Source of the DNA: Gammaproteobacteria bacterium
GTDB lineage: Bacteria > Pseudomonadota > Gammaproteobacteria > Chromatiales > Chromatiaceae
Length of the DNA: 64,000 bases
Assembly: GCA_020445335.1 (NCBI GenBank)
Contig: JAGRGU010000065.1
Location: 18,996-82,995, forward strand
Direction of reading: 5' to 3'
The position numbers and the translations under genes were made by a program. Below the pieces are notes generated by a model, which had not been told where the DNA came from, did not search any database, and saw only the letters and a list, made by a program, of their open reading frames with translations. Shown here piece by piece: positions 7,829-49,912 of this stretch. Every line of letters begins with the position of its first letter. The stretch's first letter is position 1.

Positions 7829-7856
7829 GTCGAGCTCCCGAACGGAGAGAAACCCG

Positions 7857-9305
7857 ATGGCGATAGATTTCACCACCTACCAGATTCCGACCTATGACGA
7901 GGCGTTGTCGCGCACCAACCGCGCCAGATCCCACGCGGTGCCGCTGCTGCGGGTGCTGCGGGAGATCGGCGAAGAGGATCTCGCGTCGCGCCAGGCGGCC
8001 GCGGAGATGGCGATCAAGGGCATGGGCATCACCTTCACCGTCTACAGCGAGGGCGCCGCGATCGATCGCGCCTGGCCGTTCGATATCATCCCGCGGATCA
8101 TACCCAAACAGGAGTGGGACGGTATTCGCGCCGGACTCCGGCAACGGGTCAAGGCGCTCAACCTCTTCATCGACGATCTCTACCACAAGCAGCAGATCGT
8201 CGAAGACGGGGTTTTCCCGCGCGAAGTGCTGGCCAAGTCGAAGAACTTCCGCCCCCAGTGCGTCGGCATCGACCCGCCACTGGGGATCTGGGCGCATATC
8301 TGCGGCTCGGACCTGGTGCGCGACAGCGACGGCGGCGTCTACGTGCTCGAAGACAATCTGCGCGTCCCCTCCGGCGTCTCCTACATGCTGGAGAACCGCT
8401 TGATCACCAAACGGGTGCTGCCCGAGCTGTTCGACGAGTACGCGCCGCTGCCGGTGGACGACTACCCCTCGCAACTGTTCGATACGCTCAGCGACCTCTG
8501 CCCGTCCCGCGACCGTCAACCCGAGGTGGTGGTGCTGACACCCGGCATCTACAACTCAGCCTACTTCGAGCACGCCTACCTGGCGCAGCAGATGGGATGC
8601 GAACTGGTCGAGGGGAGCGATCTCTTCGTCGACCGCGACGATGTGGTCTACATGCGCACCATCAACGGTCCGCAGCGTGTCGATGTCATCTATCGCCGCA
8701 TCGACGACGAGTTCATGGATCCCGAGGTCTTCAACCGCGAGTCGATACTCGGCGTGCCCGGGCTGATGCGGGCCTGGAAGGCTGGCAACGTGGCGCTGGC
8801 CAACGCGCCCGGTGCCGGTGTTGCCGATGACAAGGTGGTCTACGCATTCGTGCCGGATATCATCAAATACTACCTGAACGAGAAACCGCTGCTGCCGAAC
8901 GTTCCGACCTACCGCTGCATGTACGCAGAGGAGCTGGAGTACGTGCTCGGCCATCTCCATCAGCTGGTGGTCAAACCGGCCAACGAATCGGGGGGGTACG
9001 GTATGTTGATGGGACCCAGCTCCAGCAAGGCGGAGCGTGAGAAGTTCGCGCGGCTGATCAGCGAGGATCCGCGCAACTACATCGCGCAGCCGATGGTCGG
9101 TATCTCGACGGTGCCCACGGTGGTGGGCAAGCATCTCGAGGCCCGCCACGTCGATCTGCGGCCATTCATACTCAGCGGCTCGAAGATCCAGGTCACCGCT
9201 GGCGGCCTGACCCGGGTGGCACTGCGCAAGGGATCGCTGGTAGTCAACTCATCACAAGGCGGCGGCAGCAAGGATACCTGGATCGTCGACACAGGAGGGT
9301 CATGA
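7857..9305 (+). CDS. Circularly permuted ATP-grasp protein
   Basis: A 482-residue member of the circularly permuted ATP-grasp type 2 family (COG2308-like). Recognisable segments are GIDPPLGIWAHICGSD, VLEDNLRVPSGVSYMLENR and VVKPANESGGYGM, the last being the ATP-binding Lys/Gly loop. The family is predicted to form amide bonds by an acyl-phosphate mechanism; the actual product is unknown. It starts 28 bases after the DUF2126 gene behind CGGAGAGAAA, and its stop is one base before the alpha-E start, so the genes are almost certainly co-transcribed. Confidence 0.92.
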   Translation: MAIDFTTYQIPTYDEALSRTNRARSHAVPLLRVLREIGEEDLASRQAAAEMAIKGMGITFTVYSEGAAIDRAWPFDIIPRIIPKQEWDGIRAGLRQRVKALNLFIDDLYHKQQIVEDGVFPREVLAKSKNFRPQCVGIDPPLGIWAHICGSDLVRDSDGGVYVLEDNLRVPSGVSYMLENRLITKRVLPELFDEYAPLPVDDYPSQLFDTLSDLCPSRDRQPEVVVLTPGIYNSAYFEHAYLAQQMGCELVEGSDLFVDRDDVVYMRTINGPQRVDVIYRRIDDEFMDPEVFNRESILGVPGLMRAWKAGNVALANAPGAGVADDKVVYAFVPDIIKYYLNEKPLLPNVPTYRCMYAEELEYVLGHLHQLVVKPANESGGYGMLMGPSSSKAEREKFARLISEDPRNYIAQPMVGISTVPTVVGKHLEARHVDLRPFILSGSKIQVTAGGLTRVALRKGSLVVNSSQGGGSKDTWIVDTGGS

Positions 9306-11520: not shown

Positions 11521-12807
11521 CTACAGCAGCGAGCCGTAGTCGACCTGCAGCTTGTCGAAGCTGAGGCTGGAGAGGAAGCGCGAGAAGCTCATCCAGGTCG
11601 CCAGACCCCTTAGGTCGGCAAAGTGCGGTGGTGTGAAGTGGGGCGAGGCCACAACCCCCTCGTCCATCAGCAGGCGGTATGTCTTTATATCCTCCAGCGT
11701 GATTTTGCCGCAGAAGAGGACAGGCAGGCTGTCCAGCCGGCCCTCGCTCATCGCCAGGCGCAGGAAGTTGTAGGTCTGGATGAAGCCGCGCATGTAGGCC
11801 AGATCCTTGGTGAACGGCCTGCCGTCGGGCGTGCTGCCGCGGAATACCCTGACCGCAAGTTTGTAGCTCTCATCCCGGGAGAGACCGTTGCCATGCAGAT
11901 AGTCGAACACCTCGACGAAGTCGGCTCCCTGCTCGGCCAGGGTAACAGCCCGCACCCGGTTGATCAGGCGGTAGAGGCGCGAGGGGCTGGAGCGCAGCGT
12001 CAGGATCTCGGTGAGGACGGCGAGACCCTCCTGGGTGGTGGTCGACGAGGGTGGTCCCTTGCCGAGGAAAGTGCACCAGGGTTGCTCGGAGCCGTTCAGC
12101 GTCGTGCCGAGGTGCACCCAGCCTTCGTGTACTTCGAGCACATCGATGTCGAGCTGGTTGAAGCGTGCATCGCTGCGGATCTTGAGGTAGTCCGAGCCGG
12201 CCGCCGCATCGGCCGTCATCTGGTCGTTCAGCAGCACACGGATGCCGGCGTCGGGGAAGGCGGCCAGCAGCCGTTCGTTGAGCATCTCGACCGCACGTTC
12301 GGCGCTGATCTCCTTGGGCGCCTCCGCCATCGATTTGTTGCGCAGCAGGTTGGTCAGGGTCGATTCCATCTCGCTGCCGAGATCGGCCAGGGTGGGATCG
12401 CCGGCATGGAAGACGTCGGAGGCGGAGCCGTAGAGGTCTTCGGAGATCAGGCCGAACTCTCCGCTGCCGCGCGACTCCAGCAGCCGCACTACGCTGCCGT
12501 ACTCGCGGCAGATCCGCCGCATGATGGTGGCGAGGGGGTTTAGTTGTCCCAGCCGGCGCGAAATATCGCGTTCGATGGCGTGGAATTCGCCGCGCTTCGC
12601 TGCAGGATCGAACTCCAGCGGGTTGCTGCGGCTATAGTATTCGGCGTCGACCTGGGGCAGGCACCTGCAGCCGTTCTGGAAAAAGTCGCGGCGCAGCTGT
12701 TCGTTCCATTTGATCGCGTCGAGGATACGGATCGGACGCTGGGCCTCGACGATTCGTTCGGAGAGTTCGCGCACCATCGCCAGGTAGTCAGACGCGAATT
12801 CACTCAT
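11521..12807 (-). CDS. QEGLA-motif DUF1704 protein, HExxxH metallopeptidase homologue (MATCAP-like)
   Basis: A 428-residue protein of the family named flavohemoglobin expression-modulating QEGLA motif protein (DUF1704). It contains HEGWVH (His227, Glu228, His232), an HExxxH zinc motif, and TQEGLAVLTE with Glu260 as a likely third ligand. The same arrangement is found in the eukaryotic tubulin tyrosine carboxypeptidase MATCAP/KIAA0895 group, so a peptidase activity is plausible. The C-terminal half has the conserved LAYMRGFIQTYNFLRLA. It appears to be a single cytoplasmic gene; no flavohemoglobin gene is seen nearby, so the traditional name should not be over-read. The start at 12807 is the first ATG in frame. 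Confidence 0.82.
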   Translation of the reverse strand: MSEFASDYLAMVRELSERIVEAQRPIRILDAIKWNEQLRRDFFQNGCRCLPQVDAEYYSRSNPLEFDPAAKRGEFHAIERDISRRLGQLNPLATIMRRICREYGSVVRLLESRGSGEFGLISEDLYGSASDVFHAGDPTLADLGSEMESTLTNLLRNKSMAEAPKEISAERAVEMLNERLLAAFPDAGIRVLLNDQMTADAAAGSDYLKIRSDARFNQLDIDVLEVHEGWVHLGTTLNGSEQPWCTFLGKGPPSSTTTQEGLAVLTEILTLRSSPSRLYRLINRVRAVTLAEQGADFVEVFDYLHGNGLSRDESYKLAVRVFRGSTPDGRPFTKDLAYMRGFIQTYNFLRLAMSEGRLDSLPVLFCGKITLEDIKTYRLLMDEGVVASPHFTPPHFADLRGLATWMSFSRFLSSLSFDKLQVDYGSLL

Positions 12808-18698: not shown

Positions 18699-21119
18699 AT
18701 GAAGCGGATCGTCACCTTGGCGGTGCCCCTGTTGGTCGCCAGCGCCGTGCTGCTGGGCGGCCGCCTGTTCGAATCCTATCTCTCCGAGCGCGCTCACCAG
18801 CACGAGCAGGTTGCCGCCTATGCAACCCTGGGCGCAATCCGCGCCCGCCTCGAGGGGGTCGTGAACCACAACCTGATGCTGGTACAGGGGCTGGTCGCGG
18901 TGATCAGCGGAAATCCCGATCTGACGCAGCAGGAGTATGCCACCTACGCCGCCGCGTTGCTCAACCGCAAGAACCAGCTGCGGAATATCGGTGCCGCACC
19001 CGACCTGGTGGTTTCGATGGTCTACCCGCTGGAGGGCAACGAGGCAGCGCTGGGGCTGGATTATCGGACACACCCCAGGCAGCGGGAGGCCGCTATGCGG
19101 GCGCTGCGGTTGGGCGAGACCGTGATCGCGGGACCGGTCGAGTTGATACAGGGAGGAGAGGGGTTCATCGCGCGCATGCCCGTCTATTACGGCGACAAGG
19201 AAGGGGGGGTGTCGTTGAAGTCCTGGGGGCTGGTATCCGCGGTCATCGACGTTGAGAAGGTCTACCGGGAGGCGGGATTGCTGGCGCGATCGCTCGATCT
19301 GACGGTGGCGATACGCGGAGTGGATTCACTGGGTGATGCCGGTGCGGTCTTTTTCGGCGACGAAGCCCTGTTCCAGGGAGAAGAGACCATCAGGCTGCCG
19401 GTCTCCCTGCCCAGCGGCAGCTGGCAGCTCGCGGCGCGACCCAAGTGGGGATGGGGGAGTTCGGCCCCACTGGCAGCCTGGATCAGGGGGGCTTATATAC
19501 TGGGGGCAGTACTGTCCGCGCTGCTGCTCTTTCTCTGGCAGCGTCAGCTGGCCGAACGCCGGCGAATCTCGCAACTGCTGCGCAGCAATCAGCGCGAACT
19601 GGATGCGATCGTTGAGCACCTGCCGACCGTGCTCTCGGTGAAGGATGCCGGGAGCCTCAGATATCTGCGCTTCAACCGCGCCGGAGAGGAGCTCTACGGC
19701 ATGCGTCGGGATGAGCTGATCGGCAGGCGCGATCTGGAGCTGTTTCCGCGCGAGGATGCCGAGCGCTACGAGGCGTCGGATCGCCAGGCCCTCTCCGCCG
19801 GGGGAGAGATCGAGCATTCGGAGGATCTGGTTGAGACACGCGCCGGCAAGCGCATATTTCGCAGCCGCAAGGTCGCCCTTCAAGATGAGCAGGGGGCGGC
19901 CAGGTACCTGCTCTGCATCGCCGAGGATATCACCGAGAGCAGACGCGCGGAGGCGGACAGGGAGCGGATGCAGAGGGAGCTGCAGCAGGCGCAGAAGATG
20001 GAGGCGCTGGGGCAGTTGACCGGAGGGGTGGCGCATGACTTCAACAACATTCTCGGCATCATGCTCGGCTACGCCGATCTGGCGTTGGCGCAGAGCCAGC
20101 GCGCCGGAGCGGAGCGTATTGCGGGCTTTATGGCGAAGATCGTGACGGCGGGGTTGCGCGCCAAGGAGCTGGTCTCGCAGATGTTGACCTTCAGCAGGGA
20201 GAGCAGCGGAGAGAATCGGGTGCTGCAGCTGGGACCACTGATCGACGAGGATCTGAAACTGTTGCGCGCGACATTTCCGGCGACGATCGATATCCAGTGG
20301 GCGATGGAGGAGAACCTGCCCGCTGCCGTCATGGATCCGGTGCGTCTGAACCAGATGCTGGTCAATCTCTGCATCAATGCCCGGGATGCGATGGGCGCGA
20401 GCGGCCGGCTGTCGATCACGTTGAAACGGGCGCGTGACCTTGCGCGGGAGTGTTCAGCGTGCCACAAGAAGGTCGTGGGTGAGTGGCTCGAACTCGCCGT
20501 TGCGGATACCGGAAGCGGCATCGAGGCGGAGATCATCCCCCGCCTGTTCGAACCGTTCTTCACCACCAAGGGGGTCGGCAAGGGGTCGGGGCTGGGGTTG
20601 TCGGTGGTGCACGGCATCGTTCACGCCTGCGCCGGGCATATTGTCGTCGACTCGTCGCCGGGCAGGGGAACGGTGGTCAGGCTGCTGCTGCCGATGGCTG
20701 CGGAAGCGGAGTCGGTGCTTCCGTCCGGGCTCGAGCATGCGTGCGTGCCGCCGCGGGGTGAGGGCAGGCGTGCGCTGGTGCTGGACGATGAGCGGGATCT
20801 GGCAGTGTATGTCGCCGAACTGCTGCAGGGGCATGGCTTCCAGGTTGAGATCAGCACCGACAGCCACGACGCCCTGGCGCGGTTCGAGGCCGATAGTAAC
20901 GCTTTTTCGCTGCTGGTCACGGACCAGACCATGCCCGGCATGAGCGGCATGGAACTGGTCAGCCGGATTCGCCGGCTGTGCCCCGATCTAGCGGTCATCG
21001 TCTGCTCCGGCTACAGCGAGACGCTGACCGCCGCCGAACTGGATCGGTTGGGTGTGCGCTACCTGCAGAAGCCGGTCGACGCACAGAAGCTTTTACGCAT
21101 TGCCGCTGAACTGGGTTGA
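18699..21119 (+). CDS. CHASE-domain hybrid sensor histidine kinase with receiver domain
   Basis: An 806-residue hybrid kinase. A membrane helix at residues 4-22 and another near 265-285 flank a periplasmic CHASE-type sensor (MVYPLEGNEAALGLDYRTHP, ALRLGETVIAGPVELIQGG). A PAS domain (about 300-420), a phosphoacceptor with TGGVAHDFNNILG (His446), an HATPase domain (GKGSGLGLSVVHG) and a C-terminal receiver with Asp742 in LVTDQTMPGMSG follow. ATG 18699 is preceded by GGAGAGG; an in-frame ATG at 18585 would add 38 residues without hydrophobic character and is rejected. No effector lies nearby, so the phosphotransfer partner is probably encoded elsewhere. Confidence 0.88.
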   Translation: MKRIVTLAVPLLVASAVLLGGRLFESYLSERAHQHEQVAAYATLGAIRARLEGVVNHNLMLVQGLVAVISGNPDLTQQEYATYAAALLNRKNQLRNIGAAPDLVVSMVYPLEGNEAALGLDYRTHPRQREAAMRALRLGETVIAGPVELIQGGEGFIARMPVYYGDKEGGVSLKSWGLVSAVIDVEKVYREAGLLARSLDLTVAIRGVDSLGDAGAVFFGDEALFQGEETIRLPVSLPSGSWQLAARPKWGWGSSAPLAAWIRGAYILGAVLSALLLFLWQRQLAERRRISQLLRSNQRELDAIVEHLPTVLSVKDAGSLRYLRFNRAGEELYGMRRDELIGRRDLELFPREDAERYEASDRQALSAGGEIEHSEDLVETRAGKRIFRSRKVALQDEQGAARYLLCIAEDITESRRAEADRERMQRELQQAQKMEALGQLTGGVAHDFNNILGIMLGYADLALAQSQRAGAERIAGFMAKIVTAGLRAKELVSQMLTFSRESSGENRVLQLGPLIDEDLKLLRATFPATIDIQWAMEENLPAAVMDPVRLNQMLVNLCINARDAMGASGRLSITLKRARDLARECSACHKKVVGEWLELAVADTGSGIEAEIIPRLFEPFFTTKGVGKGSGLGLSVVHGIVHACAGHIVVDSSPGRGTVVRLLLPMAAEAESVLPSGLEHACVPPRGEGRRALVLDDERDLAVYVAELLQGHGFQVEISTDSHDALARFEADSNAFSLLVTDQTMPGMSGMELVSRIRRLCPDLAVIVCSGYSETLTAAELDRLGVRYLQKPVDAQKLLRIAAELG

Positions 21120-21197
21120 GTCGGCATGCTTCGCGTCTGCCGGCGAGCCGTCGGAGAGGGGGCTCGAATCCGCAGGTGCGAGCCTTGCTGCGTCAAG

Positions 21198-21302
21198 TTA
21201 ATCCTCTCTACCTTTTTTTCTCATCGCATTCGAGAAGATCAGAAACAGCGATACCGCCGCCGTAAGCGCGAGTGCAGCCAAGGTCAGATTGTCGATGATC
21301 AT
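21198..21302 (-). CDS. 34-residue single-span membrane protein
   Basis: A very short minus-strand gene: MIIDNLTLAALALTAAVSLF and then LIFSNAMRKKGRED, a hydrophobic helix of about 20 residues with a positively charged cytoplasmic tail. AGGAATTTTACG precedes the ATG at a good spacing. The tail obeys the positive-inside rule. It sits in an A/T-rich patch unlike its neighbours, with TATATAGGA motifs upstream. It resembles small subunit-type or regulatory membrane proteins in shape only; I know no family for it. Confidence 0.55.
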   Translation of the reverse strand: MIIDNLTLAALALTAAVSLFLIFSNAMRKKGRED

Positions 21303-21466
21303 CGTAAAATTCCTATATAAGAAACTACTTAATTACTGATATATAGGATCGATGATTTACGGCAAAAGTTCAATAGAAAGATTTTTATGCAGATATTCAG
21401 GGGTTTATGGGATTTTAAGGTCTCGATCGGGAGCCTTGAAAATCCCCGGTTTTAGCGGGAGGTTAG

Positions 21467-21550
21467 CTTGCCCCCTCTCCCTTTTGGGCCGGGGGCAAGG
21501 TAGGAACGCAATCAGCCCTCCCTCTGACCCTCTCCCATGAGGGGAGAGGG
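21467..21550 (-). terminator. Two consecutive hairpins downstream of gltA
   Basis: CTTGCCCCC (21467-21475) pairs exactly with GGGGGCAAG (21491-21499). CCCTCTCCC (21528-21536) pairs with GGGAGAGGG (21542-21550). They lie 45-130 bases beyond the gltA stop and could end or stabilise its transcript. The CCCTCTCCC...GGGAGAGGG type is common as an interspersed intergenic element in many genomes, so these may be copies of a repeat family. No T-tract follows either one on the minus strand. Confidence 0.5.
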
Positions 21551-27971: not shown

Positions 27972-29183
27972 ATGGAACTGCTGGGACGAATCAGCGTCGG
28001 CAGCGCGGAAAATTCGCGTTCGATCGAGCTCTACCGGGGCGATCTGGTGGCGCTCCCCGAGGCGCATGCGGTCGATCTTCTGGTGGTATCGGCCTTTCCC
28101 GACGACTATCTTGCGACCGCCGGTTCGCTGATCGGCGCGCTGGCCGCGAACGGGGTCTCGGTCGCCGAGCTCGCAGCGCACAAGGCGCTGGATCTGCGCT
28201 CGGAGCGCTCCTGCTGGCTCTCCGGAGAGATCGCAGGCGGTCGCGGTTTCACGCGTATCCTCTGTTTCGAACCGCTGCGCAGAGGCAGGCCGCCCGAGCT
28301 GGTCGATGATCTGTTCGACAGCCTGGATCAGGTGATGCTGGGCGACTGTCGCGAGGGGCGGGTCGCGATGCCGCTGCTGGCTACGGGCGATATGGCCTGG
28401 CCGAGCGCGGAGATGCTCCCGGCGTTGCTCGACGCAGCGGTGGCAAGGCTGCGCATCGGGTTGCCGCTGCGGGTGTTGAAGATCGTGGAGAGGGAGCCGG
28501 GAAAGGCGGAGCTGCTGCAGCGGCTGTTCAAGGATTACGTGGATGCCCATGGTGGGCACTTCGACGCCAGGCCGCCGCGCCACCCGCGGCCTCCGCCCGC
28601 TGCACCGGAACCGGTGCGCCGCCGGGCCGGGCGGTTGTGGCGCCGATTGACGCGAGACGGTCTGCAGGAACTGGCGCGACGGCTGGGGCGCCTCGGCGGC
28701 GCCGGGCCGGGTGCGGGCTCGGTGATCCTCGGTGGCGGCGCCGATGGACCGCTCGACGGGCGGGACGGTGACTGGGACATATTCGTCAGCTATTCGCGCA
28801 GAGACACTGCGCTGGTAGACAGCTTCGTGGCGATGGTACGGGCGCAGTATCCGGAGGCGCGCATATTTCGCGACTCCGAGTCGATCCGTGCGGGGATGGA
28901 CTGGATCACCCGATTGGCGGAGGCGATCGACGCTTCGCGTAGCGTGGTCGCGCTCTTCTCGCCCGACTACTTCGATTCGACCTGGTGCAAGCGCGAGTTC
29001 AACGCGGCGATAATCCGTGCCGACCAGGGTGACGACGAGCTGCTCTATCCACTTTACCTGCGTGACGACAAGCAGGCTCCCTCACTCTATCTCACCTTCA
29101 ATCTGGTCGATTGCCGCGAGGCCGATGCGCAGAAGATGCTGGGGGCAAGCAGGAAACTGGTGACGCGGCTCAAGCAGCACTGA
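27972..29183 (+). CDS. TIR-domain protein with unfamiliar N-terminal alpha/beta domain
   Basis: A 403-residue cytoplasmic protein in three parts. Residues 1-185 are an alpha/beta domain with VDLLVVSAFPDDYLATAGSL and KIVEREP, reminiscent of macro-type or Rossmann-like ligand-binding domains but not firmly identified. Residues 190-260 are a Pro/Arg-rich linker. Residues about 268-400 form a TIR domain (WDIFVSYSRRDTALVDSF, IFRDSESIRAGMDWI, SPDYFDSTWCKREF) with Glu342 of the WCxxE motif, the catalytic Glu of NAD-cleaving TIRs. It could be an NADase effector in phage defence or a signalling scaffold; both are inferences. It lies 76 bases after the lipoprotein genes and converges with the GGDEF/EAL gene. 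Confidence 0.85.
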   Translation: MELLGRISVGSAENSRSIELYRGDLVALPEAHAVDLLVVSAFPDDYLATAGSLIGALAANGVSVAELAAHKALDLRSERSCWLSGEIAGGRGFTRILCFEPLRRGRPPELVDDLFDSLDQVMLGDCREGRVAMPLLATGDMAWPSAEMLPALLDAAVARLRIGLPLRVLKIVEREPGKAELLQRLFKDYVDAHGGHFDARPPRHPRPPPAAPEPVRRRAGRLWRRLTRDGLQELARRLGRLGGAGPGAGSVILGGGADGPLDGRDGDWDIFVSYSRRDTALVDSFVAMVRAQYPEARIFRDSESIRAGMDWITRLAEAIDASRSVVALFSPDYFDSTWCKREFNAAIIRADQGDDELLYPLYLRDDKQAPSLYLTFNLVDCREADAQKMLGASRKLVTRLKQH

Positions 29184-34423: not shown

Positions 34424-36106
34424 TCAGCGTTGGCAGGTTTGTGCGCTGACCGCCTCTGCGCGGCGGTAGCCGCGGTACCCGCCACGTCCGGAGATGTCCA
34501 CGCCGTTGAGAAAGTAACTGTCGTCCTGGCGGTGTTCCGGACTCTCGACCCGGTAGCCGAGCAGTCGCGCGAGAAAACGCCCGACATCGTAATGGGTGGC
34601 GGGGCAGGGCAGTTCGGCAGGCAGCGCATCGAGCGCAGTGGGCGTATTGAGCCCGTGGTAGATAAAGGGTACGCGCGCCGAGCCGAACTCGAGCGTGTTG
34701 TGGCCGTAGCCGCCGGTTTCCCCCAGCCGCTGGCCGTGATCCGAGGTGATGACGATCACGGTCGGCCTGTCGGTGCGCTGCGCCAGCAGCTGGATGATCT
34801 CTCCGACCACCCAGTCGAAATAGGCCATCGCATCGTCGTAGCTGGCCTGCATATAGCGGTCGTACTTGCCCCGCGACAGCCCTTTGGCAAAGCGCAGGCG
34901 ATCGGGGGGGACGAAGTTCGCGTAGGGTATGTGTCCGGCGCGCGGATTGAGCGTGAGCATGAACGGCTGCCGCCAGTCGAGCGGCAGTTGCCGCAGCGTG
35001 TTGAGCAGGCGTTGGTCGTAGCTGCCCGGCGCGTTCTCGATATGCTTCAGTTCGCGCCAGATATCCACGGCGCCCAGCGACACCTGAGAGGCGATGGCAT
35101 ACATCTCCTGCGAGGAGAGGAACGCCGTCTGATACCCCTGCGTCTTGGCCAGCCGGTAGAGGTTGCTTCTGCCCGAAGCGATGTGGGTGCGGTTATCCGG
35201 CTCGTACTGCACGTTGAAGAACATCGGGATGGATACATGCGTGGAGACCCCGCTGGAGACCCCTGGCAGCCAGAAGAGGTCGGAAGCACGCGCCAGCGAG
35301 CTGAGGAAGGGGGTGGTGTCGTGCGGATAGCCGTAGAGCCCCATATGCGTGTAGGTGATACTTTCGCCCATGATGATCACCAGGTTGACCTTGTCCCCGG
35401 CGATCGGCGAAGCGACTCGGTCCACCCTGTACGGTGCATACTCTCTGCTGCCGGCGCCACCCTGTTCGAACAGCCGATCCCAGACCGTGTGGTAGGCGAT
35501 GGCGTTGACGCCGTTGCGGAACGCAGTCTTGCCCGGGTCGGGGTCGAAACGCATCGAGTTGTCTTCGGTGTAGGCGTGGATGAAGGGGACCAGCAGCCAG
35601 AAGAGCAGCAACCCGTAGCCCCACTTCTTCCCGGCTGAGAGGCTGAGTGCGGCGCTCTTCGACTGCAGCAGCAGCGTCAGCAACGCCGTCGCAAGGGTGA
35701 TCCCTGCGAGCGGCAGGAACAGGCGTAGCGTGCTGCTGTCGCTCAGCGTGATCCAGACGTCGTTGTCGGTCTGCCGCGACAGCAGCGCCAGCTCGGCGGG
35801 GCCATAAAAGGTGCCTGCCAGCAGGTGGTAGGCGATCTCGCTGAACTGCAGCAGCAGCATCAGCGCGAAGACCCAGAGGTAGGCGTGGCCGGAGCGCCGG
35901 CTCACGCGAAGAAACAGGAAGAAGGCGAAGATGTAGCCGATGTCGTCCTTGCGCCAGAGGATCCCCTGCAGCGCCCCGCTCCAGTGCAGATAGAGCTCGG
36001 CGAGCAGGAACGGGGCGCTAAGCAGCAGCGCCATGGTCAGATTGACCGCGACGCCCGCTGCGAATCTGGTCAGGCGTTGGATTCGGCTCCCCTCGACGGC
36101 GTTCAT
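34424..36106 (-). CDS. Sulfatase-fold membrane transferase (EptA-like) in phosphonate operon
   Basis: A 560-residue inner-membrane protein. Residues 1-195 hold five or so membrane helices. The periplasmic part is an alkaline phosphatase/sulfatase-type domain with metal-site motifs IIMGESITYTHMGLYGY, SSGVSTHVSIPMFF (Thr289, likely nucleophile), and ITSDHGQRLGETGGYGHNTL. It resembles phosphoethanolamine transferases such as EptA/CptA, but the Cys that usually follows the Thr motif is replaced by Met. Its ATG overlaps the stop of the nucleotidyltransferase gene (TGATG). In this operon the natural guess is transfer of an aminoethylphosphonate-bearing group to a surface glycan or lipid. Confidence 0.85.
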   Translation of the reverse strand: MNAVEGSRIQRLTRFAAGVAVNLTMALLLSAPFLLAELYLHWSGALQGILWRKDDIGYIFAFFLFLRVSRRSGHAYLWVFALMLLLQFSEIAYHLLAGTFYGPAELALLSRQTDNDVWITLSDSSTLRLFLPLAGITLATALLTLLLQSKSAALSLSAGKKWGYGLLLFWLLVPFIHAYTEDNSMRFDPDPGKTAFRNGVNAIAYHTVWDRLFEQGGAGSREYAPYRVDRVASPIAGDKVNLVIIMGESITYTHMGLYGYPHDTTPFLSSLARASDLFWLPGVSSGVSTHVSIPMFFNVQYEPDNRTHIASGRSNLYRLAKTQGYQTAFLSSQEMYAIASQVSLGAVDIWRELKHIENAPGSYDQRLLNTLRQLPLDWRQPFMLTLNPRAGHIPYANFVPPDRLRFAKGLSRGKYDRYMQASYDDAMAYFDWVVGEIIQLLAQRTDRPTVIVITSDHGQRLGETGGYGHNTLEFGSARVPFIYHGLNTPTALDALPAELPCPATHYDVGRFLARLLGYRVESPEHRQDDSYFLNGVDISGRGGYRGYRRAEAVSAQTCQR

Positions 36107-36855
36107 CAGGCTTCCGCCTCACGTGCCAGGATCAGGCGCTCGATCCGCTGCGCCCGCCGGTAGTGACTTTCGTCGTCGATCTCCGACCAGAGCAGATCGT
36201 CGATGGCGAGGCAGTGGACCGGGAGGGTGCGCGCGGCGGCGACCAGTGCGTCGGTCTCGTAGTCCAGGTGCAGGTCACCGCCGGCGAAATGGCGGCCGGC
36301 ATATTCGCACATGCGGGTGTAGAGTGGTGCGGAAATTTTGCTGATACCGACCAGCTCGCCGGCCACCAACGGTCCCAGCTGGGCGCGCCGTTTCGACATC
36401 GCCCGCAGTTTTCGGTCGGCGTCGGTCTCGACATAGACTTCGTCGCCGGCATCGGTAGGGCCGGAGAGCAGGATCAGGTTCTCCTCGGGTTGCGTCAGCA
36501 GTGCGGTGAGCGCCCGTTGTTCGTAGATCAGATCAGACTCCAGCAGCAGGAAGCCCTCCTTCACGGCGGCGCGCGCCAGATAGAGCGAGTACATACTCCC
36601 CGAGTCGGCGAAATCGGCGTTGTGAAGGGTGCAGATCAGATCCGGCCGCTCATCGGCCAGCGCGCGGTAGAACTCGGGCTGGTAGCCGGTGACGATGGTG
36701 ATGCGCTCGATGCCGACCCGCCGCAGCCGTTCGATCGAGGTGCCGACGAGCGACTCGCCGCCAAGCGCCAGCGCCCCTTTCGGTCCCTGGTGTCCGATCG
36801 GGCGCAGGCGGGTGCCCATGCCGGCCGCCAGTATCACCGCCTGCCTCAGGCGCAT
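36106..36855 (-). CDS. LicC/PntC-type nucleotidyltransferase, probable CTP:aminoethylphosphonate cytidylyltransferase
   Basis: A 249-residue sugar-phosphate nucleotidyltransferase fold: VILAAGMGTRLRPIGHQGPK (signature LAAGxGTRL...PK), LHNADFADSGSMYSLYLARA, LLLESDLIYEQRAL and WSEIDDESHYRRA. The second half follows LicC (CTP:phosphocholine cytidylyltransferase) better than sugar enzymes. Located after the AEP transaminase gene (10-base overlap) it most likely makes CMP-AEP, the activated donor for phosphonolipids or phosphonoglycans. Specificity is inferred from context; phosphocholine or a sugar phosphate remain possible. Confidence 0.8.
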   Translation of the reverse strand: MRLRQAVILAAGMGTRLRPIGHQGPKGALALGGESLVGTSIERLRRVGIERITIVTGYQPEFYRALADERPDLICTLHNADFADSGSMYSLYLARAAVKEGFLLLESDLIYEQRALTALLTQPEENLILLSGPTDAGDEVYVETDADRKLRAMSKRRAQLGPLVAGELVGISKISAPLYTRMCEYAGRHFAGGDLHLDYETDALVAAARTLPVHCLAIDDLLWSEIDDESHYRRAQRIERLILAREAEA

Positions 36856-37937
36856 AGCAGTCGCTCGAGCGTGGCCAGCAGACGGGCCAGGTCATCGTCG
36901 CGGATGTCGCCCATGGTGCAGATGCGGAACATCTCCTTATAGAGGTCACCCTGGCCGGCGTAGATGATGAAGCCGGCGTCGCGCAGCGCATCGTGCAGCG
37001 CCGGGTAGTCCCAGTCCCGCGGCAGGGCGAAGGATGAGATCATGCTGGAGTAGCTGTCGTCGTCGATGTAGGCGGCGACGCCGAGCGCATCTAGCCGCTC
37101 GCGCAGCTGCCTCGACAGCAGGCGGTAGCGAGCCCGTCGTCCCCGCCAGCCGCCCTGCCGCTCCAGCTCGTCCAGTGCCTGGCGCAGCGCGAAGCAGGCG
37201 TGCACCGCCGGGGTGAAGGGCGAGAAGCCGTCGACCTGCGCCGCCTGGTAACGGAACAGGTCCGTGTAGAGCCCGTCCGCCTGGCTGGTGCCGGTTTCGA
37301 ACAGGCGCTTGCGCGCCATGACGAAAGCGATGCCGACGATGCCGTGCAGGCATTTGTTGCCGGTGGAGGCGACCGCGTCCAGATTGGGGTGGGAGAAGTC
37401 GATCCGTTCGGCGCCGAAACTGGAGACGGCGTCCAGCAGCAGCCGGCACTCGAACTCGGCGCAGAGCGCCAGCAGTGGCTCGAGCTCGTTCAGGCGTCCG
37501 CTGGTGGTCTCGTTGTGCACCGCGACGATGTGGCCGATGTCGATTGCCTGCTCCAGCTTCCGCCGCGCGCGGTCCAGCGCCATCGGCTCGCGCCAGTCGG
37601 CCCGCAGCTCGACGTACGGACGTTTGTGGGCGCCCAGCATGGCGGCAATCCGCTCGCCATAGACGCCGTTGCTCAATACCAGCGTGGTGCTCTCCCGGGG
37701 GGCGAGGCTGTCGATCATCGCCTCCACCGCGCAGGTACCCGACCCGGTCAGCGTGACCGCCTCGAATTCCTCTTCCGCCTCAGCATAGACCCGCGCCAGG
37801 CGCTGCTTGATATCGAGCATGAGCGCGGCGAAATCGGCTTCACGGTGGCACATGTCGTCGTGGAGCAGCGCCTTGCGCACGCTGTCGCTCAGCGTCACCG
37901 GGCCTGGATTCAGCAGTATGGGGGGGCGTCCATTCAT
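36846..37937 (-). CDS. phnW: 2-aminoethylphosphonate transaminase
   Basis: A 363-residue class V PLP aminotransferase of the PhnW type: ILLNPGPVTLSDSVRKALL at the start, TGSGTCAVEAMIDSL, DAVSSFGAERIDF and STGNKCLHGIVG, whose Lys holds PLP. PhnW interconverts phosphonoacetaldehyde and AEP. As no phosphonatase gene is present and PEP mutase is, the biosynthetic direction (aldehyde to AEP) is expected. The ATG at 37937 overlaps the ppd stop by 4 bases (ATGA). An open frame extends upstream to 38195 but lies inside ppd and is not needed. Confidence 0.9.
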   Translation of the reverse strand: MNGRPPILLNPGPVTLSDSVRKALLHDDMCHREADFAALMLDIKQRLARVYAEAEEEFEAVTLTGSGTCAVEAMIDSLAPRESTTLVLSNGVYGERIAAMLGAHKRPYVELRADWREPMALDRARRKLEQAIDIGHIVAVHNETTSGRLNELEPLLALCAEFECRLLLDAVSSFGAERIDFSHPNLDAVASTGNKCLHGIVGIAFVMARKRLFETGTSQADGLYTDLFRYQAAQVDGFSPFTPAVHACFALRQALDELERQGGWRGRRARYRLLSRQLRERLDALGVAAYIDDDSYSSMISSFALPRDWDYPALHDALRDAGFIIYAGQGDLYKEMFRICTMGDIRDDDLARLLATLERLLCA

Positions 37938-39076
37938 CGCCGTATCTCGAGGAAATCGTGCAAACGCCGGGCGACCTCCACTGGCGTGATCGTCGGCCGC
38001 GGCAGATCCTCCGGTACCCCCTGGACCATCGGCGCATGGATGAAAAAGAGCCCGCCGGGCCGATCCCGAAGCCGCCGCGCGAGCGCTTCCGCGCTGTCGA
38101 CCCGGTAACTCTGCGGGTAGCCGCAGGCGGTGGCGATGGCGCAGAAGTCGACCGAGCGCGAAACCGTCGCCTGGCCGCCGGTCGATTCGTGGCAACCGTT
38201 GTCCAGCAGGATATGCGTCAGGTTGTCGGGACGCTGGTATCCGATGGTGCTCATCGCGCCCATGCGCATCAGCGCCGCGCCGTCACCGTCGAGTACCAGC
38301 ACCCGGCGCTCGGGCCGGACCAGCGCCAGCCCCAGGCCGAAACTGGAGGCACAGCCCATGCTCCCCACCATGTAGAGCTGGTTCGGCCGATCGGCCAGTG
38401 CGTAGAGCTCGCGACCGGTATAGCCGGTGGTGGCGATGATCAGCGCCTCCTCGCCGGCGGCGGCCTGTACCGCGCGCAGATAGGCGCTGCGGCGCTCGCT
38501 GGGGGTGCCGACCGGGATTGCCTTGGCTGGCGCGGAGGGCGCCTTTATCTGCGGCTGGCTGCGCAAGCTGCAGGGCGCCACGCTGCCCTTGCGCATCACC
38601 AGCGCATACGGGGTGCCCGACTCCTGCATGTGCGCCACCGCACGTTGCAAGCAGTCGGCTATCCCGCTCTCCTGGTCCGGGAAGTACTCCCAGGGAATTT
38701 GCATCAGCTCGAGCATGGCGGTGGTGATCTCACCCATCAGCTCGTGCTGGGGCTCGTCGGGCACGCCGCCCGGTTCGCCTCGCAGCGTGACGATCAACAG
38801 CAGCGGAATACGGAAGCTGTGGGTCAGCGAGGTCAGAGGATTGACCGCGTTTCCCAGTCCCGAGTTCTGGAACATCGCGATCGAGCGCACGCCGCCGAGC
38901 TGCGCGCCGGCGGCAATCGCGACGGCGTCGCCTTCGTTGGCGGCGGCGATATAGCGCTGCGACGGATCGTCAATGACGTAGTTGATGAAAGGCTTGAGGT
39001 AGGAGCATGGCACGCCGATCCAGAGGCCGAAACCCTGCCCTCTCACCGCGTCGACGAACTTTTCTGCTGAGATCAT
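37934..39076 (-). CDS. ppd: Phosphonopyruvate decarboxylase
   Basis: A 380-residue thiamine-diphosphate enzyme that decarboxylates phosphonopyruvate to phosphonoacetaldehyde, making phosphonate synthesis irreversible. Features: ISAEKFVDAVRGQGFGLWIG, GVPCSYLKPFINYVID, AANEGDAVAIAAGA (catalytic Glu), and the ThDP/Mg motif VLDGDGAALMRMG ... LLDNGCHESTGG. ATG 39076 gives the family-typical N-terminus and lies 16 bases after the pepM stop behind CCGGAG; an upstream ATG at 39121 would overlap pepM. Second gene of the operon. Confidence 0.92.
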   Translation of the reverse strand: MISAEKFVDAVRGQGFGLWIGVPCSYLKPFINYVIDDPSQRYIAAANEGDAVAIAAGAQLGGVRSIAMFQNSGLGNAVNPLTSLTHSFRIPLLLIVTLRGEPGGVPDEPQHELMGEITTAMLELMQIPWEYFPDQESGIADCLQRAVAHMQESGTPYALVMRKGSVAPCSLRSQPQIKAPSAPAKAIPVGTPSERRSAYLRAVQAAAGEEALIIATTGYTGRELYALADRPNQLYMVGSMGCASSFGLGLALVRPERRVLVLDGDGAALMRMGAMSTIGYQRPDNLTHILLDNGCHESTGGQATVSRSVDFCAIATACGYPQSYRVDSAEALARRLRDRPGGLFFIHAPMVQGVPEDLPRPTITPVEVARRLHDFLEIRR

Positions 39077-39092
39077 GGCTCGGGCTCCGGCG

Positions 39093-40706
39093 TCAGAAGT
39101 TGCCGGCCTGGACGACGTCATCGAGGGTGTCGATGTCGAGCCAGTGGCCGGTGGTGTAGAGGCCGCGAACCGCTTGTCCGCGTTCGATCAGGCGGTTGAG
39201 CAGTTCTGGGATTTTTGCCTGCCGCTGACCCGGTTCCCGCAGCATCCGTTCGCTGGCCTGCAGGATTTCGGGGATTGTATCGGCATCGATCTTCAGGAAC
39301 CCCATCCACTCGCCATGGATCTGGTTGCCGGGGAGATCGGCGGCGATCTCAAGCAGGTTGACCGGGGTGGTGAACGACTCCCGGCTATGGGGCGCCGAGC
39401 AGCGCACATAGTCGGCGCTGCGGTGGCGGTTGGCGCTCTCCATCCAGTTGGTGTCGATCGCGACCGCCAGGGGCGCCTCCGATTCGGCCAGCATCTGCGC
39501 GATATATTTGTTGAACAGCACGTCGCCGTAACAGACGATCAGGTCCTGCTCGGGGTCGACGCCGCGCAGACCCTTCAGCAGCGACAACAGCTCACCCGAG
39601 TCGGCGAACTCGTCGTTGTCGATCAGTTTCAGGTTGGGCAGGTCGACCGCCTCCTTGCGGTAGCCGCGGACCACCGAGATGCGTTTTATGCCGGTCGCAT
39701 TGAGCGCCTCGACGATACTCGACAACAGCGGTTTGCCGCCGATGTTGACCATCGTCTTCGGGCGCTGTTCGGTCAGCGGGCCGAGCTCCTTGCCCCGCGA
39801 CGCCGCCAGCACCAGTGCCTGGGTGCCGCGGCTGCGCTGCGGCAGATATTTCTTCTCCGCCTGCTGCAGCTCGGTCGCCCCCTGCAATCGGAACACCTCG
39901 GTCACCGGGACCACGCGGTCTTCGACCGAGAGCAGGTTCTGCTCGTCGGCGAGGGTTCGCGCGGTCGCCTGCATTGCCGCGATCGAGGCGCGCATCAGGT
40001 GATTGGCCCAGATGATCAGCGAAAAGCCGTGGTCACGGAACAGCTCGGTGGGGGTGGCGTAGTATTTGGTCGGCACGATCACCACCGGGGCGCGCGCCCC
40101 CCATTCCTGCTTGAAGGCCAGGATCTCGTCCGGCGTGCTCAGCGCCGAGTGGATCAGGATGGCGTCGGCGCCGGCCGCGTGGTAGGCCTCGGCACGCCTC
40201 AGCGCCTCGCTCAGGCCCCAGCCTGCGATGAACGCCTCGATCCTGGCGACGATAGCGAAGTCGTCGTCGCGCTGCGCATCCTTGCCGGCCTTGATCTTGC
40301 CGCAGAATTCGTCGATATCGGCCAGCGGCTGCGCCTGTCCCCCGATAAAGCTGTTGGTCTTGGGAAAGAGTTTGTCCTCGATGCAGACGGCGGCCACTTC
40401 GCGCTGTTCCAGTTTATTGACCAGCCGACGCATGTTGTTGAAATTACCGTACCCGGTGTCTCCGTCGAGCAGGATCGGGATGCGCGTGGCATCCGACATG
40501 AATTCCAGCATCTCCAGCACCTGGGTCCAGCTCGCCTCGTTGTTGTCGCGTACGCCGAACTGTGCCGAGAGCGAAAGCCCACTACCCCAGATCCCCCTGA
40601 AGCCGGCCTCCTGAGCGATGATGGCGCTGATGCCGTTGTGCGCCTCGCATAGGAATTCAAGATTATCTGAGTTCAGTAACTCTCTGAACTGTAGGGTTTT
40701 TTTCAC
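39093..40706 (-). CDS. pepM: Phosphoenolpyruvate mutase fused to nucleotidyltransferase domain
   Basis: A 537-residue bifunctional protein. Residues 1-295 are PEP mutase, which rearranges PEP to phosphonopyruvate: [32 protein letters not shown] and the diagnostic [11 protein letters not shown]. Residues 310-537 are a nucleotidyltransferase-like domain ([43 protein letters not shown]), whose start [18 protein letters not shown] departs from the usual LAAGxGTRL loop. The start is set at GTG 40706 ([10 protein letters not shown]), matching PEP mutase N-termini. First gene of the AEP operon and its defining enzyme; probably co-expressed with ppd, phnW, the LicC-like gene and the sulfatase-fold gene. 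Confidence 0.92.
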
Positions 40707-40710
40707 AAAC

Positions 40711-40740
40711 TTGGCTTCCGGTTGGGAAAACAAATAATAT
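40711..40740 (+). promoter_or_regulatory. Possible licD promoter in the divergent gap
   Basis: TTGGCT (40711-40716) and TAATAT (40735-40740) are spaced by 18 bases in the only A/T-rich part of the pepM-licD gap. Transcription would start near 40747, about 60 bases before the licD start. The minus strand of the same patch (TATATT) could serve pepM. Confidence 0.4.
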
Positions 40741-40806
40741 ACCAAATTCGGTGCCGGTGCGCCGCGTCAGGATCTGCAAATCAGCGGGAAAACCATTATC
40801 TCCGGG

Positions 40807-41436
40807 TTGAAGAAAATCAAGCGATCGCTCAAGCGGCGGTTGGGTCTGCCCAGTGGGCGCCCGCCTTTCACCGGCAAGCACTACCGGCGTGGACGGACGC
40901 TGCTGCTGGACACGGTCGATATCTTCAATGCCGCCGGCATTCCCTACACGCTTGATGCCGGCACCCTGCTCGGCATCGTGCGCGATGGCGACCTGATCCC
41001 CTGGGACAACGATATCGACCTGATGCTGCCGGCCAGCGCCGTGCCGCAGCTGCGCCGCGTCTACCGGCAGATCTTCCTGCGCGGCTGGAAGGTATCCAGA
41101 ACCTATCGCATGACCTTCGCCAGCGACGCATGGCGGGTGGGCGACCCGCGGGTGGTCAAGCTGCGCAGCTGGAATCCCTGGCTGTTCGGGCCTGGCTCGA
41201 CGCTGCTGGATATCACCATCATCCATCCTCATCAGGGGGCTTACTGGTGGGAGATGGCGAAGCAGGTCTGCCGCGCCGATGCCGGCTATTTCGAACAGGA
41301 GAGCTGGCTGCAGTGGGGCGGGCGCCGGATACGGGTACCGCACGACTACGAAGCCTACCTGGGCGAGCTCTACGGCGACTGGAGAACCCCCGACGCGAAG
41401 TTCCATCACGACCAGTTCGGCACCATCGTCAGATAA
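40807..41436 (+). CDS. licD: LicD-family phospho(no)transferase
   Basis: A 209-residue LicD-type nucleotidyltransferase-fold protein: [20 protein letters not shown] followed by NDIDLMLP gives the conserved GxxR...WDxDxD acidic motif; [14 protein letters not shown] and [13 protein letters not shown] are also typical. LicD enzymes move phosphocholine, or related headgroups, from CDP-type donors to surface sugars. Beside an AEP pathway the likely donor is CMP-AEP. No ATG is available; TTG 40807 is the best start (next TTG 24 bases later) with a poor ribosome-binding site, so the exact start is uncertain. Divergent from pepM. Confidence 0.8.
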
Positions 41437-42878: not shown

Positions 42879-43731
42879 ACCTTTCCGGATCGCGGTGCTG
42901 CTGCTGATCTGGGGCTGGATAGTGCTGTTCGTGCTGCTCCCTAATCTGCTGGTGGTCGCAACCAGTTTCCTGACCCGCGACGACAGCCGTTTCATCAGCT
43001 GGCAGCTGACGCTGGATAACTACCTGCGGCTGGTGGATCCGGACTACCTCGGTGTATTCGGTCACTCGTTCTACATGGCGCTGGTGACCACCCTGCTCTG
43101 CCTGCTGGTCGGCTACCCGTTCGCCTACCTGCTGAGCCGTCTGCGTCCGTCGCTGAAACCCTACCTGCTGTTTCTGGTGATCGTGCCGTTCTGGACCAAC
43201 TCCCTGGTGCGCACCTACGCGATGAAGCTGCTGATCTCGGTCAATGGCCTGCTGAACAAACTGCTGCTGACGCTCGGCTGGATCGATACGCCGCTACGCA
43301 TGCTCTACAGCGAAGGGGCTGTCATTGCCGGCCTTTTCTACATTTTGCTGCCGTTCATGATCCTGCCGCTCTATGCGGTCTTCGAGCAGCTCCGGCCGGA
43401 GCTACTGGAGGCTTCGCGGGATCTCGGCGCCGGCCGCTGGCGCAGCTTCACGCGGGTGGTGCTGCCGCTGACGCTGCCAGGCATCATCGCCGGTTCGCTG
43501 CTGGTGCTGCTGCCGGCGGTCGGCATGTTTTACGTCGCCGATGTGCTCGGCGGTGCCAAGAACCTGCTCATTGGCAATGTCATCAAGAGCCAGTTTCTCG
43601 ACGCCCGCGACTGGCCTTTCGGTGCCGCGGCAAGTCTGTTGCTGACCGTGGCGATGGCGGTGCTGCTCTATGCCTACTACCTCAGCGTCAACATGATCAG
43701 GCGCCCGGACAACGATGCTGAACTGGCTTAA
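42865..43731 (+). CDS. potB: Spermidine/putrescine ABC transporter permease
   Basis: A 288-residue inner-membrane permease with about six helices ([19 protein letters not shown] at the start, [18 protein letters not shown]) and the EAA loop [20 protein letters not shown] that contacts PotA. The start overlaps potA by 14 bases. Forms the membrane channel with PotC. Confidence 0.92.
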
Positions 43732-48328: not shown

Positions 48329-49912
48329 CTACAGATCCCAGATGTCGCCGTATTCGTGACGGCGGCCGCAGTAGCGGCAGGTGAATGTCTCGCCGACGCT
48401 GCGGTAGAAGTGCGGCGGTACATGCTGGAAGGCGCCCGGCCAGGTGATGCACTCCGAGTTCTTGCAGGAGATCTCGGCGAAATTGTAGATCTTCGGCGGC
48501 ATCGCCAGCCGGTATTTTGCCTTAACCGAGCGGTTCTCGATCAGATTGACTGTGCAGCCTGGCGAGACCGCGGCCAGTTTCTTCAGTTCGGTGTGGCTGA
48601 TCTCGAGGATATCGGGCAGCGACATGATGCCCTTGAAATCCCTGGGGTCGGCGGTATGGAAGACGCCGTGGGAGCCGCGCACGTTCAGTTTGAGGATGCG
48701 CCGGATCTTATAGATCCGGTCCCAGATCTCCTCCGGCGTCCGCCCTTTGGCAATATGGTCGATGACCGTACCGTCGTCGACCGGCTTGATACCGACCTTG
48801 AAGCGATCCTCGACGCGTGTCTTGCGCGTGACCGGAACCTCTGTGATAAAGGATTCCTCGCGCGGCTCTGGGAGTGGGCTGCTGCCCTCGAAGTCGGCGC
48901 CCAGCCGCCCGGCTACAATCGCCAGTTCGATGATCCGGGTGAAGTAGCCGTTGATGCTCTGACCGTCCCAGCCGTTCAGCGGCATGGTGTCCAGAAACGA
49001 TGGAATCACAGGTTTTTCGCGATGGCGGGGCAGCGGGTGGTAGAAGCGGGTGTTGCGCGGCAGCGCCTCCAGCCAGCGCTGACGGAAGGTGACCGCACGT
49101 CTCAGTTCTGTCTCCCGTTCGCGAATTTCATCGCCCATGCGTTCGAGCTGCAGGCGCGTGAAGTACCAGCAGTTGCTGACATCGCCGGATTCGAGGTACT
49201 CGGCTATGCCCGGCCACTCCCGCACCTCGAAGCCGTTCTCCTCCATGCGGTTCTTGTAGGAGGCTGGCAGCGCGAGCTCTTCCGGCGCCACCAGGTCGAC
49301 CTTGACCGAGCGGAACACCTTGAGCCCGTCGGCCTTGGAGTGAACCGTGCGGCCGTGGAAGAGGTCGCCGATCAACGCGACATGAATCTGCGAGTCGTCC
49401 CAGTTCTGCTGTTCGAGGAAGGTGAACTCGTCGAGAAACTCCTGGGTCGGGTGCTCGTGGCGGCCGTCGCCGGCATTGATGAAGACCGGTTTCTCCCGGC
49501 CGAGGCGCTCCGCATACTCCCCCAGCTGCTCCTCCAGCGCCAGGCAGACACCCTCCATCTTGGTGCGCATGACGAAGATCGAACGACGACCGTAGCCGAA
49601 CAGCATCTTGACGGTGTCGACCAGGCTCTCCGATTTTTTGAAAGAGGAGGAGGAGGCGTCGAAGACATTGGTGGTGATGTTGTGGAACTTGGCGGCGTTT
49701 AAGAACGACTCCTTGGTGCGGGTGGAGTCCTCGAGAAACATCAGGTAGACGCTCAGTTCCGGGTCGCTGATGCGGAATGGGGTGAGATCACCGCCCCGCT
49801 GCCAGACCTCCTTGAGCTCACGGGTCTTGCCGTAGAGGTAGCGTTGCTCGTCGACGCTGAGGTCGGCTGCGGCCGCCAGGGTGCGGCCGCGCAAGGGATT
49901 TGCTCTGCTCAC
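48329..49912 (-). CDS. pyrB: Aspartate carbamoyltransferase, catalytic-regulatory (PyrB-PyrI) fusion
   Basis: A 527-residue protein. Residues 1-340 are the PyrB catalytic chain: FLEDSTRTKESFLNAAKFHN (carbamoyl-phosphate loop), GDGRHEHPTQEFLDEFTFLE, and RFYHPLPRH (aspartate end). Residues 370-527 match the PyrI regulatory chain, ending with a zinc site CKNSEC ... CRYCGRRH. Separate chains are usual in enterobacteria; fused PyrBI proteins are known in a few lineages. It starts pyrimidine synthesis by making carbamoyl aspartate, with built-in nucleotide control. ATG 49912; the following 142-bp gap contains the argF leader. Confidence 0.88.
   Translation of the reverse strand: MSRANPLRGRTLAAAADLSVDEQRYLYGKTRELKEVWQRGGDLTPFRISDPELSVYLMFLEDSTRTKESFLNAAKFHNITTNVFDASSSSFKKSESLVDTVKMLFGYGRRSIFVMRTKMEGVCLALEEQLGEYAERLGREKPVFINAGDGRHEHPTQEFLDEFTFLEQQNWDDSQIHVALIGDLFHGRTVHSKADGLKVFRSVKVDLVAPEELALPASYKNRMEENGFEVREWPGIAEYLESGDVSNCWYFTRLQLERMGDEIRERETELRRAVTFRQRWLEALPRNTRFYHPLPRHREKPVIPSFLDTMPLNGWDGQSINGYFTRIIELAIVAGRLGADFEGSSPLPEPREESFITEVPVTRKTRVEDRFKVGIKPVDDGTVIDHIAKGRTPEEIWDRIYKIRRILKLNVRGSHGVFHTADPRDFKGIMSLPDILEISHTELKKLAAVSPGCTVNLIENRSVKAKYRLAMPPKIYNFAEISCKNSECITWPGAFQHVPPHFYRSVGETFTCRYCGRRHEYGDIWDL

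Follow-up and report, generated by a model that had tools for sequence, protein, structure and literature searches.

Gene content and conservation of the phosphonate unit

The window, the whole stretch of 64,000 nucleotides that was analysed, belongs to C128, one contig of the draft genome G000 (3.66 Mb). From position 40745 to 34424 its minus strand carries five successive overlapping genes in the order PepM-Ppd-AEPT-PntC-EptX, and a gene of the LicD family lies on the opposite strand:

40807 to 41436, plus strand: LicD-family transferase, divergent from pepM, candidate user of CMP-AEP (PF04991, E 7.5e-17; fukutin-related protein 6kaj, E 5e-8)
39093 to 40745, minus strand: PEP mutase (PepM) fused to a MobA-like nucleotidyltransferase domain (TIGR02320, 385.5 bits, cut-off 319.55; PF12804; PDB 1m1b, E 1e-129)
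37934 to 39121, minus strand: phosphonopyruvate decarboxylase (Ppd; TIGR03297, 435.9 bits, cut-off 312.5)
36846 to 37940, minus strand: 2-aminoethylphosphonate (AEP) transaminase (AEPT), PhnW-like (TIGR03301, 354.5 bits, just below the cut-off of 360.8)
36106 to 36855, minus strand: PntC-like cytidylyltransferase, expected maker of CMP-AEP (best PDB match 6pd1, nucleotidyl transferase/aminotransferase, E 6e-49, residues 3-236 of 249)
34424 to 36106, minus strand: EptX, an intact ORF of 560 amino acids (PF00884; AlphaFold2 model; Foldseek and VIA matches to MCR-1, EptA and EptC)

We take 6pd1 to be the PntC of T. denticola, which fits the Pnt work of Rice et al. The genes by which a Pnt cluster was recognised, namely PepM with the motif EDKxxxxxNS, Ppd, AEP transaminase and PntC, are all present in the window, and the profile and PDB matches that identified them bear out the first-pass annotation, made from the letters alone, in placing an EptA-like gene within a phosphonate operon. 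The EDKxxxxxNS motif is described as the mark of true PEP mutases (PMC6697681). The unit resembles the Pnt pathway presented there (Rice et al. 2019) in its PepM-nucleotidyltransferase fusion, Ppd, transaminase, separate PntC and LicD-like gene, but differs in the addition of a periplasmic transferase, EptX; the main text of that paper contains no mention of sulfatase, EptA or alkaline phosphatase. The LicD protein of the window has no hydrophobic membrane segment by hydropathy, and its predicted structure (pLDDT 48) was set aside.

Three further genes of the window were noted. A TIR-domain protein (27972-29183, plus strand; PF13676) has no Pfam match in its N-terminal part, and its TIR part is weakly matched in PADLOC by PDC-S66 and SAVED_TIR. 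On the minus strand, 11521-12807 encodes a protein with an almost complete MATCAP domain (PF08014, E 7e-131), which takes its name from a microtubule-associated tyrosine carboxypeptidase. At 48329-49912, also on the minus strand, an aspartate carbamoyltransferase N-terminal domain is fused to PyrI-type regulatory domains and adjoins a separate gene of the OTCase family. A tRNA-Gly called by ARAGORN at 43429-43525 (plus strand) lies inside the potB frame and is probably spurious, and a search of the window against Rfam gave no match at the gathering score.

The whole block LicD-PepM-Ppd-AEPT-PntC-EptX was found in the same order and orientation at a second locus, L085, on a contig of genome G001 (HKST-UBA179). 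Protein identities between the two loci are 74% for LicD, 77% for PepM, 69% for Ppd, 71% for AEPT, 63% for PntC and 60% for EptX. The flanks differ: L085 gave no match to the PotA, PotD, sensor kinase, GGDEF-EAL and TIR proteins of the window, and the first four genes were for this reason left out of the unit. At L085 the gene downstream of EptX (11863-12555, minus strand) has no Pfam match and, read from its translation, a PEP-CTERM-like tail; a chain-length-like ORF (19935-21545) likewise has no Pfam match. The linkage is thus based on two genomes, both drafts and of one genus.

Translational coupling of eptX to the nucleotidyltransferase gene had been put forward as a sign of its donor. In the window the eptX start does overlap the stop of the upstream PntC-like gene by one base (TGATG), whereas 38 nucleotides separate the two genes in L085. 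The coupling is therefore not conserved, and the coupled start was discarded as weak evidence for the donor.

Fold, active site and family of EptX

EptX matched PF00884 (Sulfatase) with 121 bits and is predicted to be a periplasmic sulfatase-fold phospho- or phosphonyl-ethanolamine transferase with five transmembrane (TM) helices and the nucleophile Thr289, belonging to a family other than EptA. Scanning with a sequence pattern, in which each of 84,980 species was represented by one genome, yielded 73 stretches, among them 39 relatives. The family alignment (A2) comprises the EptX of the window and 29 of the 39 relatives (30 rows); outside it were left short frames (L104, L105, L107, L116 and L121), near-duplicates (L114, L118 and L119, the last of which is short as well) and distant sequences (L122 and L123).

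The AlphaFold2 model built from A2 had a mean pLDDT of 88.1 and a pTM of 0.89. Model and hydropathy together gave five hydrophobic helices (residues 8-42, 53-68, 73-97, 124-150 and 160-180), flanked by positive charges on the inner side. Short helices at 103-111 and 116-122 lie on the periplasmic side, and a further helix (195-216) precedes the C-terminal domain; as modelled, this layout is that of MCR-1 and EptA. The structural comparison with EptA and CptA/EptC that the first-pass annotation had proposed returned the same fold: the top Foldseek matches were MCR-1 (9nww, E 1.3e-15) and EptA (5fgn), and the best VIA match was E. coli EptC (Z 31.2, rmsd 3.5 Å over 320 residues), other phosphoethanolamine (PEtn) transferases scoring Z 27-30, with MCR-1 and EptA at about 28. 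Superposition on MCR-1 over the whole length was poor (TM-score 0.43-0.45, rmsd 15.8 Å), although the catalytic domain alone fits well. Since sulfatases also score up to Z 27.6 and whole-length superposition is poor, the fold alone does not name the reaction of EptX.

Scores from Z 27.6 downward for sulfatases, and of 24.9 for the phosphonate monoester hydrolase 4uph, bear on a hydrolytic role, in which EptX would remove or recycle AEP or PEtn as the phosphonate monoester hydrolases of the superfamily do. They reflect the shared superfamily fold only, while PEtn transferases come first among the structural matches (Z 28-31) and among the profile matches alike, and the TM architecture and Thr nucleophile of EptX match the transferases; we regard hydrolysis as very improbable.

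Thr289 stands at the nucleophile position and E248, H392, D456, H457 and H469 are the metal and phosphate residues, these roles being transferred from EptA and MCR-1. T289, H392, D456 and H457 are present in all 30 rows of A2, E248 in 29 and H469 in 28, in agreement with the earlier description of nucleophile and metal motifs as intact. The same description had singled out Met295, in the motif SIPMFFN, as a substituted neighbour of the active site where a Cys is commonly found. EptA paralogues do have Cys at both 285 and 295 (EptX numbering) in eight of eight aligned cases; a ninth paralogue row, par_L002, is plain sulfatase-like, has neither Cys and was not counted among the EptA paralogues. 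A review of PEtn transferases (PMC10525099), however, describes the two cysteines (Cys276-Cys286 in N. meningitidis EptA) as a disulfide, DB1, that is conserved among lipid A enzymes of class I, and gives E. coli EptC as free of disulfides. EptX, with S285 and M295, lacks the DB1 pair of class I EptA and MCR, and Cys occurs at neither position in any of the 30 rows of A2, where residue 295 is L in 9, T in 6, S in 6, M in 5, F in 2, A in 1 and R in 1. The distant Porphyromonas-group sequence L123, outside A2, has Cys at 285 only. Met295 is not a special substitution, because the comparison had been made with the wrong class, and its candidacy as a specificity switch was rejected, Met (5 of 30 rows) being usual in the EptX family.

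With EptA and MCR the protein shares an N-terminal TM region, a periplasmic sulfatase-fold domain, the Thr nucleophile and the zinc-site residues. It differs in being only about 17-20% identical in structural alignments, in lacking the DB1 cysteines and any match to PF08019 (EptA_B_N) at E 0.001, in scoring 53.4 bits on NF028537 (cut-off 500) and in forming its own deep branch. EptC/CptA, the best VIA match, resembles EptX in having no disulfides, yet on NF007933 (cut-off 404) the EptX of the window scored 52.1 bits and that of L085 65.7. By sequence comparison, EptX is not an EptA but a member of a separate family, several members of which lie near LPS or sugar-transferase genes.

Family members from Neisseria, Pasteurellaceae and Vibrio are homologous to EptX over the catalytic domain (for example, query residues 166-552 and 227-544) and share its tree. 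They are, however, only 20-22% identical overall to EptX in A2 and lack Y93, Q112 and N387. No NCBIfam model names them and no phosphonate genes were found in their fetched flanks, where the neighbours are helicase-like, purH/purD and Kdo transferase genes. They may be Lpt3/Lpt6-like heptose PEtn transferases, L117 and L120 perhaps being Lpt3.

In the tree, the EptX proteins of the window and of L085 form a clade with support of 100/100. Its stem, with 1.57 changes per column, is longer than any other inner branch of the family, and no single family member stands out as closest to the clade. Residues common to these two sequences were compared with the other 28 rows of A2:

N387: H in 27 and N in 1 of the other rows; H also in 8 of 8 EptA paralogues
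Y93: H in 26 of 28
Y101: I in 27 of 28
Q112: E in 22 of 28, K in 5 of 28
D116: E in 25 of 28, D in 3 of 28
D425: N in 24 of 28
R460: L in 21 of 28

The other row with Asn387 is L098, from an alphaproteobacterium (34% identical over the best segment), on a 5.4-kb contig that holds none of the queried phosphonate genes. No statement on the role of H387 in EptA was found in two papers searched. For MCR-1, ten residues near bound phosphatidylethanolamine (PE) are described as tested (M105, N108, T112, E116, E246, T285, K333, H395, H466 and H478); E116A is among six mutants that abolish activity and T112A lowers it (PMC12658134). EptX residue 112 aligns with MCR-1 T112, and residue 116 with E116 or its neighbour, a pocket comparison drawn from alignments only and uncertain by one residue. 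Judging from two sequences and their alignment, a change of donor could be reflected at sites such as 112 and 116 rather than at Met295. We propose that operon-type EptX was recruited to the phosphonate operon from a separate family of envelope transferases and has since changed strongly.

Distribution of EptX and of pepM regions

Of the 210 genomes that cover the host's taxonomic family, 2 have PepM (E up to 1e-70) and 12 have EptX-family genes (E up to 1e-25). The two genomes with PepM are exactly the two with operon-type EptX; the other ten EptX-family matches are 32-36% identical and lie in genomes without PepM. A third genome of the same genus, G002, gave no match to PepM, LicD or EptX. 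The link to phosphonate metabolism drawn by the first-pass annotation is thus upheld by the conserved block at L085, where the flanks are different, and by the PepM-matched presence in 210 genomes, while its own two arguments proved weak.

Outside these genomes, the comparison set comprised 51 other PepM regions from 47 genomes, of which 31 came from a class sample (369 genomes; 27 of the regions over the PepM cut-off) and 20 from a phylum sample (398 genomes; all over the cut-off). Several of the regions end at contig ends, the shortest measuring 3.1, 3.6 and 4.0 kb. A profile search (E up to 0.001) for EptX-like genes in the 51 regions matched only a convergent YejM-type gene at L078 (182-2056; PF11893 and PF00884), and a general association of PepM with EptX was accordingly rejected. 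Whole-genome searches of 31 PepM-positive genomes with the A2 profile (E up to 1e-5) gave some match in 16, the best outside G000 and G001 being 3.4e-50. Only two matches outside G000 and G001 lay at short range on the pepM contig: the YejM-type gene in G267 and one gene in G379. The latter, EptA/EptB-type by Pfam and adjoining an LptF/LptG gene, was not counted as linked to pepM, from which it lies about 13 kb away with an integrase-core gene between. Among plasmid sequences only partial matches of less than 60% identity came up, and in none of the 273 records was 80% of the query covered.

L078 is also the closest sister operon among the 51 regions (PepM 70% and PntC 57% identical). At the place of the LicD gene of the window it has a CDP-glycerol glycerophosphotransferase-type gene (6974-8044; PF04464), divergent from pepM, which by its family would again be a step using a CMP-activated donor. 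LicD-like motifs were found in 4 of the 51 regions (L054, L057, L058 and L148). A DGELAR-type motif of CDP-alcohol phosphatidyltransferases occurs in seven (L061, L063, L066, L073, L074, L141 and L142), the ORFs concerned being candidate phosphonolipid synthases on the strength of this regular-expression match.

That the sister operon at L078 lacks EptX, and that only two genomes carry the linkage, would suit a passenger, that is, a surface-modifying gene carried with the phosphonate genes in a transferred island without any step in common. Against this, gene order and orientation are kept at 60% protein identity despite different flanks, the genes of the window overlap, and dN (0.33) compared with dS (about 1.5, near saturation) indicates purifying selection on EptX. 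We therefore consider a passenger unlikely.

Phosphonate genes were found at only one of the 39 loci of EptX relatives, L085. Six loci (L089, L090, L092, L094, L095 and L099) have glnE- and ilvE-like genes nearby, and at another two (L088 and L091) sugar-transferase genes are close; the neighbour query genes were identified by Pfam as GlnE, class IV aminotransferase, ELM1 and group 1 glycosyltransferase. The remaining loci gave none of the queried genes besides stray nucleotidyltransferase-domain and ABC-type matches. The Vibrio member adjoins a Kdo transferase gene and a Kdo/WaaP kinase gene. The settings of several relatives suggest that the background of the family is that of LPS-core enzymes.

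Possible donor of EptX and its proposed part in surface phosphonate attachment

By homology, PepM, Ppd and the transaminase would turn PEP into AEP in the cytosol, and PntC would convert this to CMP-AEP. A lipid donor is the rule for the PEtn-transferase fold. CMP-AEP is unlikely to be the direct donor of EptX, since it is cytosolic and the catalytic domain of EptX is predicted to be periplasmic. LicD, the sole candidate in the unit for a CMP-dependent transferase, may instead put AEP on a lipid carrier. The AEP-lipid would then be flipped, whereupon EptX would load AEP onto Thr289 at the zinc site and pass it on. The acceptor would lie on the outer face and, as the fold and the setting of the relatives suggest, most likely be the LPS core or another envelope glycan.

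The lipid step falls to LicD alone, because no additional CDP-alcohol phosphatidyltransferase tracks with the operon: G000 has four such genes and G001 and G002 three each, and an operon-specific enzyme of this type as AEP-lipid synthase is unsupported in the genus. LicD matches number one in G000, one in G001 and none in G002. The LicD of the window scored 54.8 bits (cut-off 225) on NF045866, the model for LicD-type diacylglycerol cholinephosphotransferases, a match that may lend slight support to the making of an AEP-lipid.

A relay of AEP from LicD to EptX is favoured by the conservation of the block in G001 with different flanks, by the matched presence of PepM, and by the absence of PepM, LicD and EptX from G002. 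The fold matches, the five helices, the long, fully supported branch, the changes H387N, H93Y, E112Q and E116D, and the purifying selection point the same way, as does the fact that the genome of the window also has a distinct EptA (G000:C8), in which both cysteines are present. The reading is weakened by the ability of these bacteria to make PE, by linkage in two draft genomes only and by the 51 other PepM regions without an EptX-like gene. It is weakened also in that LicD by itself may complete the pathway, with a glycan as acceptor, as it does in the Lic-1 pathway. The reading that we prefer makes EptX the last, periplasmic component of a surface AEP-tailoring operon, moving lipid-borne AEP to a surface acceptor; we give it slightly less than even odds. 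We would be somewhat more tentative in calling it the first enzyme with the PEtn-transferase fold to transfer AEP in the periplasm, acting with LicD in a two-step relay through a Thr289 intermediate that would connect the cytosolic Pnt pathway with surface chemistry of the EptA type.

Ordinary PEtn transfer is the main rival to the AEP relay, because PE is available. In this case EptX would use PE and LicD would add AEP to the same glycan, resulting in a mixed zwitterionic surface. EptX has the fold and the catalytic residues of PEtn transferases, psd, for PE synthesis, is present in all three genomes (G000, G001 and G002), and the settings of the relatives suggest LPS-core enzymes. Plain PEtn transfer accounts less readily for the operon-specific changes at mostly conserved positions, of which two fall within the aligned PE site or adjoin it, for the long separate branch of operon-type EptX and for the tracking of PepM by EptX, and we hold it possible but somewhat less probable than the relay. 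As to the earlier proposal of a phosphonate-linked donor rather than PE, the link to phosphonates stands, whereas the donor itself is something that we infer, psd being found in each of the three genomes.

The first-pass annotation had spoken of a new donor class for this fold; among PEtn-transferase-like enzymes a headgroup other than that of PE would not be the first. PptA is described as PEtn-transferase-like and as moving a non-PEtn headgroup too, though it acts on pilin. Pilin is reported to receive phosphocholine from PptA in addition to PEtn, the donor being still unidentified in the accounts given (PMC10525099, PMC10434233).

The kind of enzyme is known; what is new is its place in a phosphonate operon, its long branch and its altered conserved sites. 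The word phosphonate is absent from the 2023 review of PEtn transferases in 11 classes (PMC10525099), and no paper in the open-access literature was found to join pepM phosphonate biosynthesis with a phosphoethanolamine transferase, although print beyond open access may differ. Aminoethylphosphonate terms and phosphoethanolamine transferase occur together in an Acinetobacter genome paper and in a Salmonella egg-white study. In the abstract of Rice et al. (PMC6697681) the attachment of phosphonates to the bacterial surface after CMP activation is called "enigmatic". EptX is a concrete candidate for this last step. If true, the AEP reading would widen the range of headgroups handled by a fold that confers polymyxin resistance elsewhere; if the donor is only PE, EptX would still represent a branch of PEtn transferases tied to phosphonate decoration.
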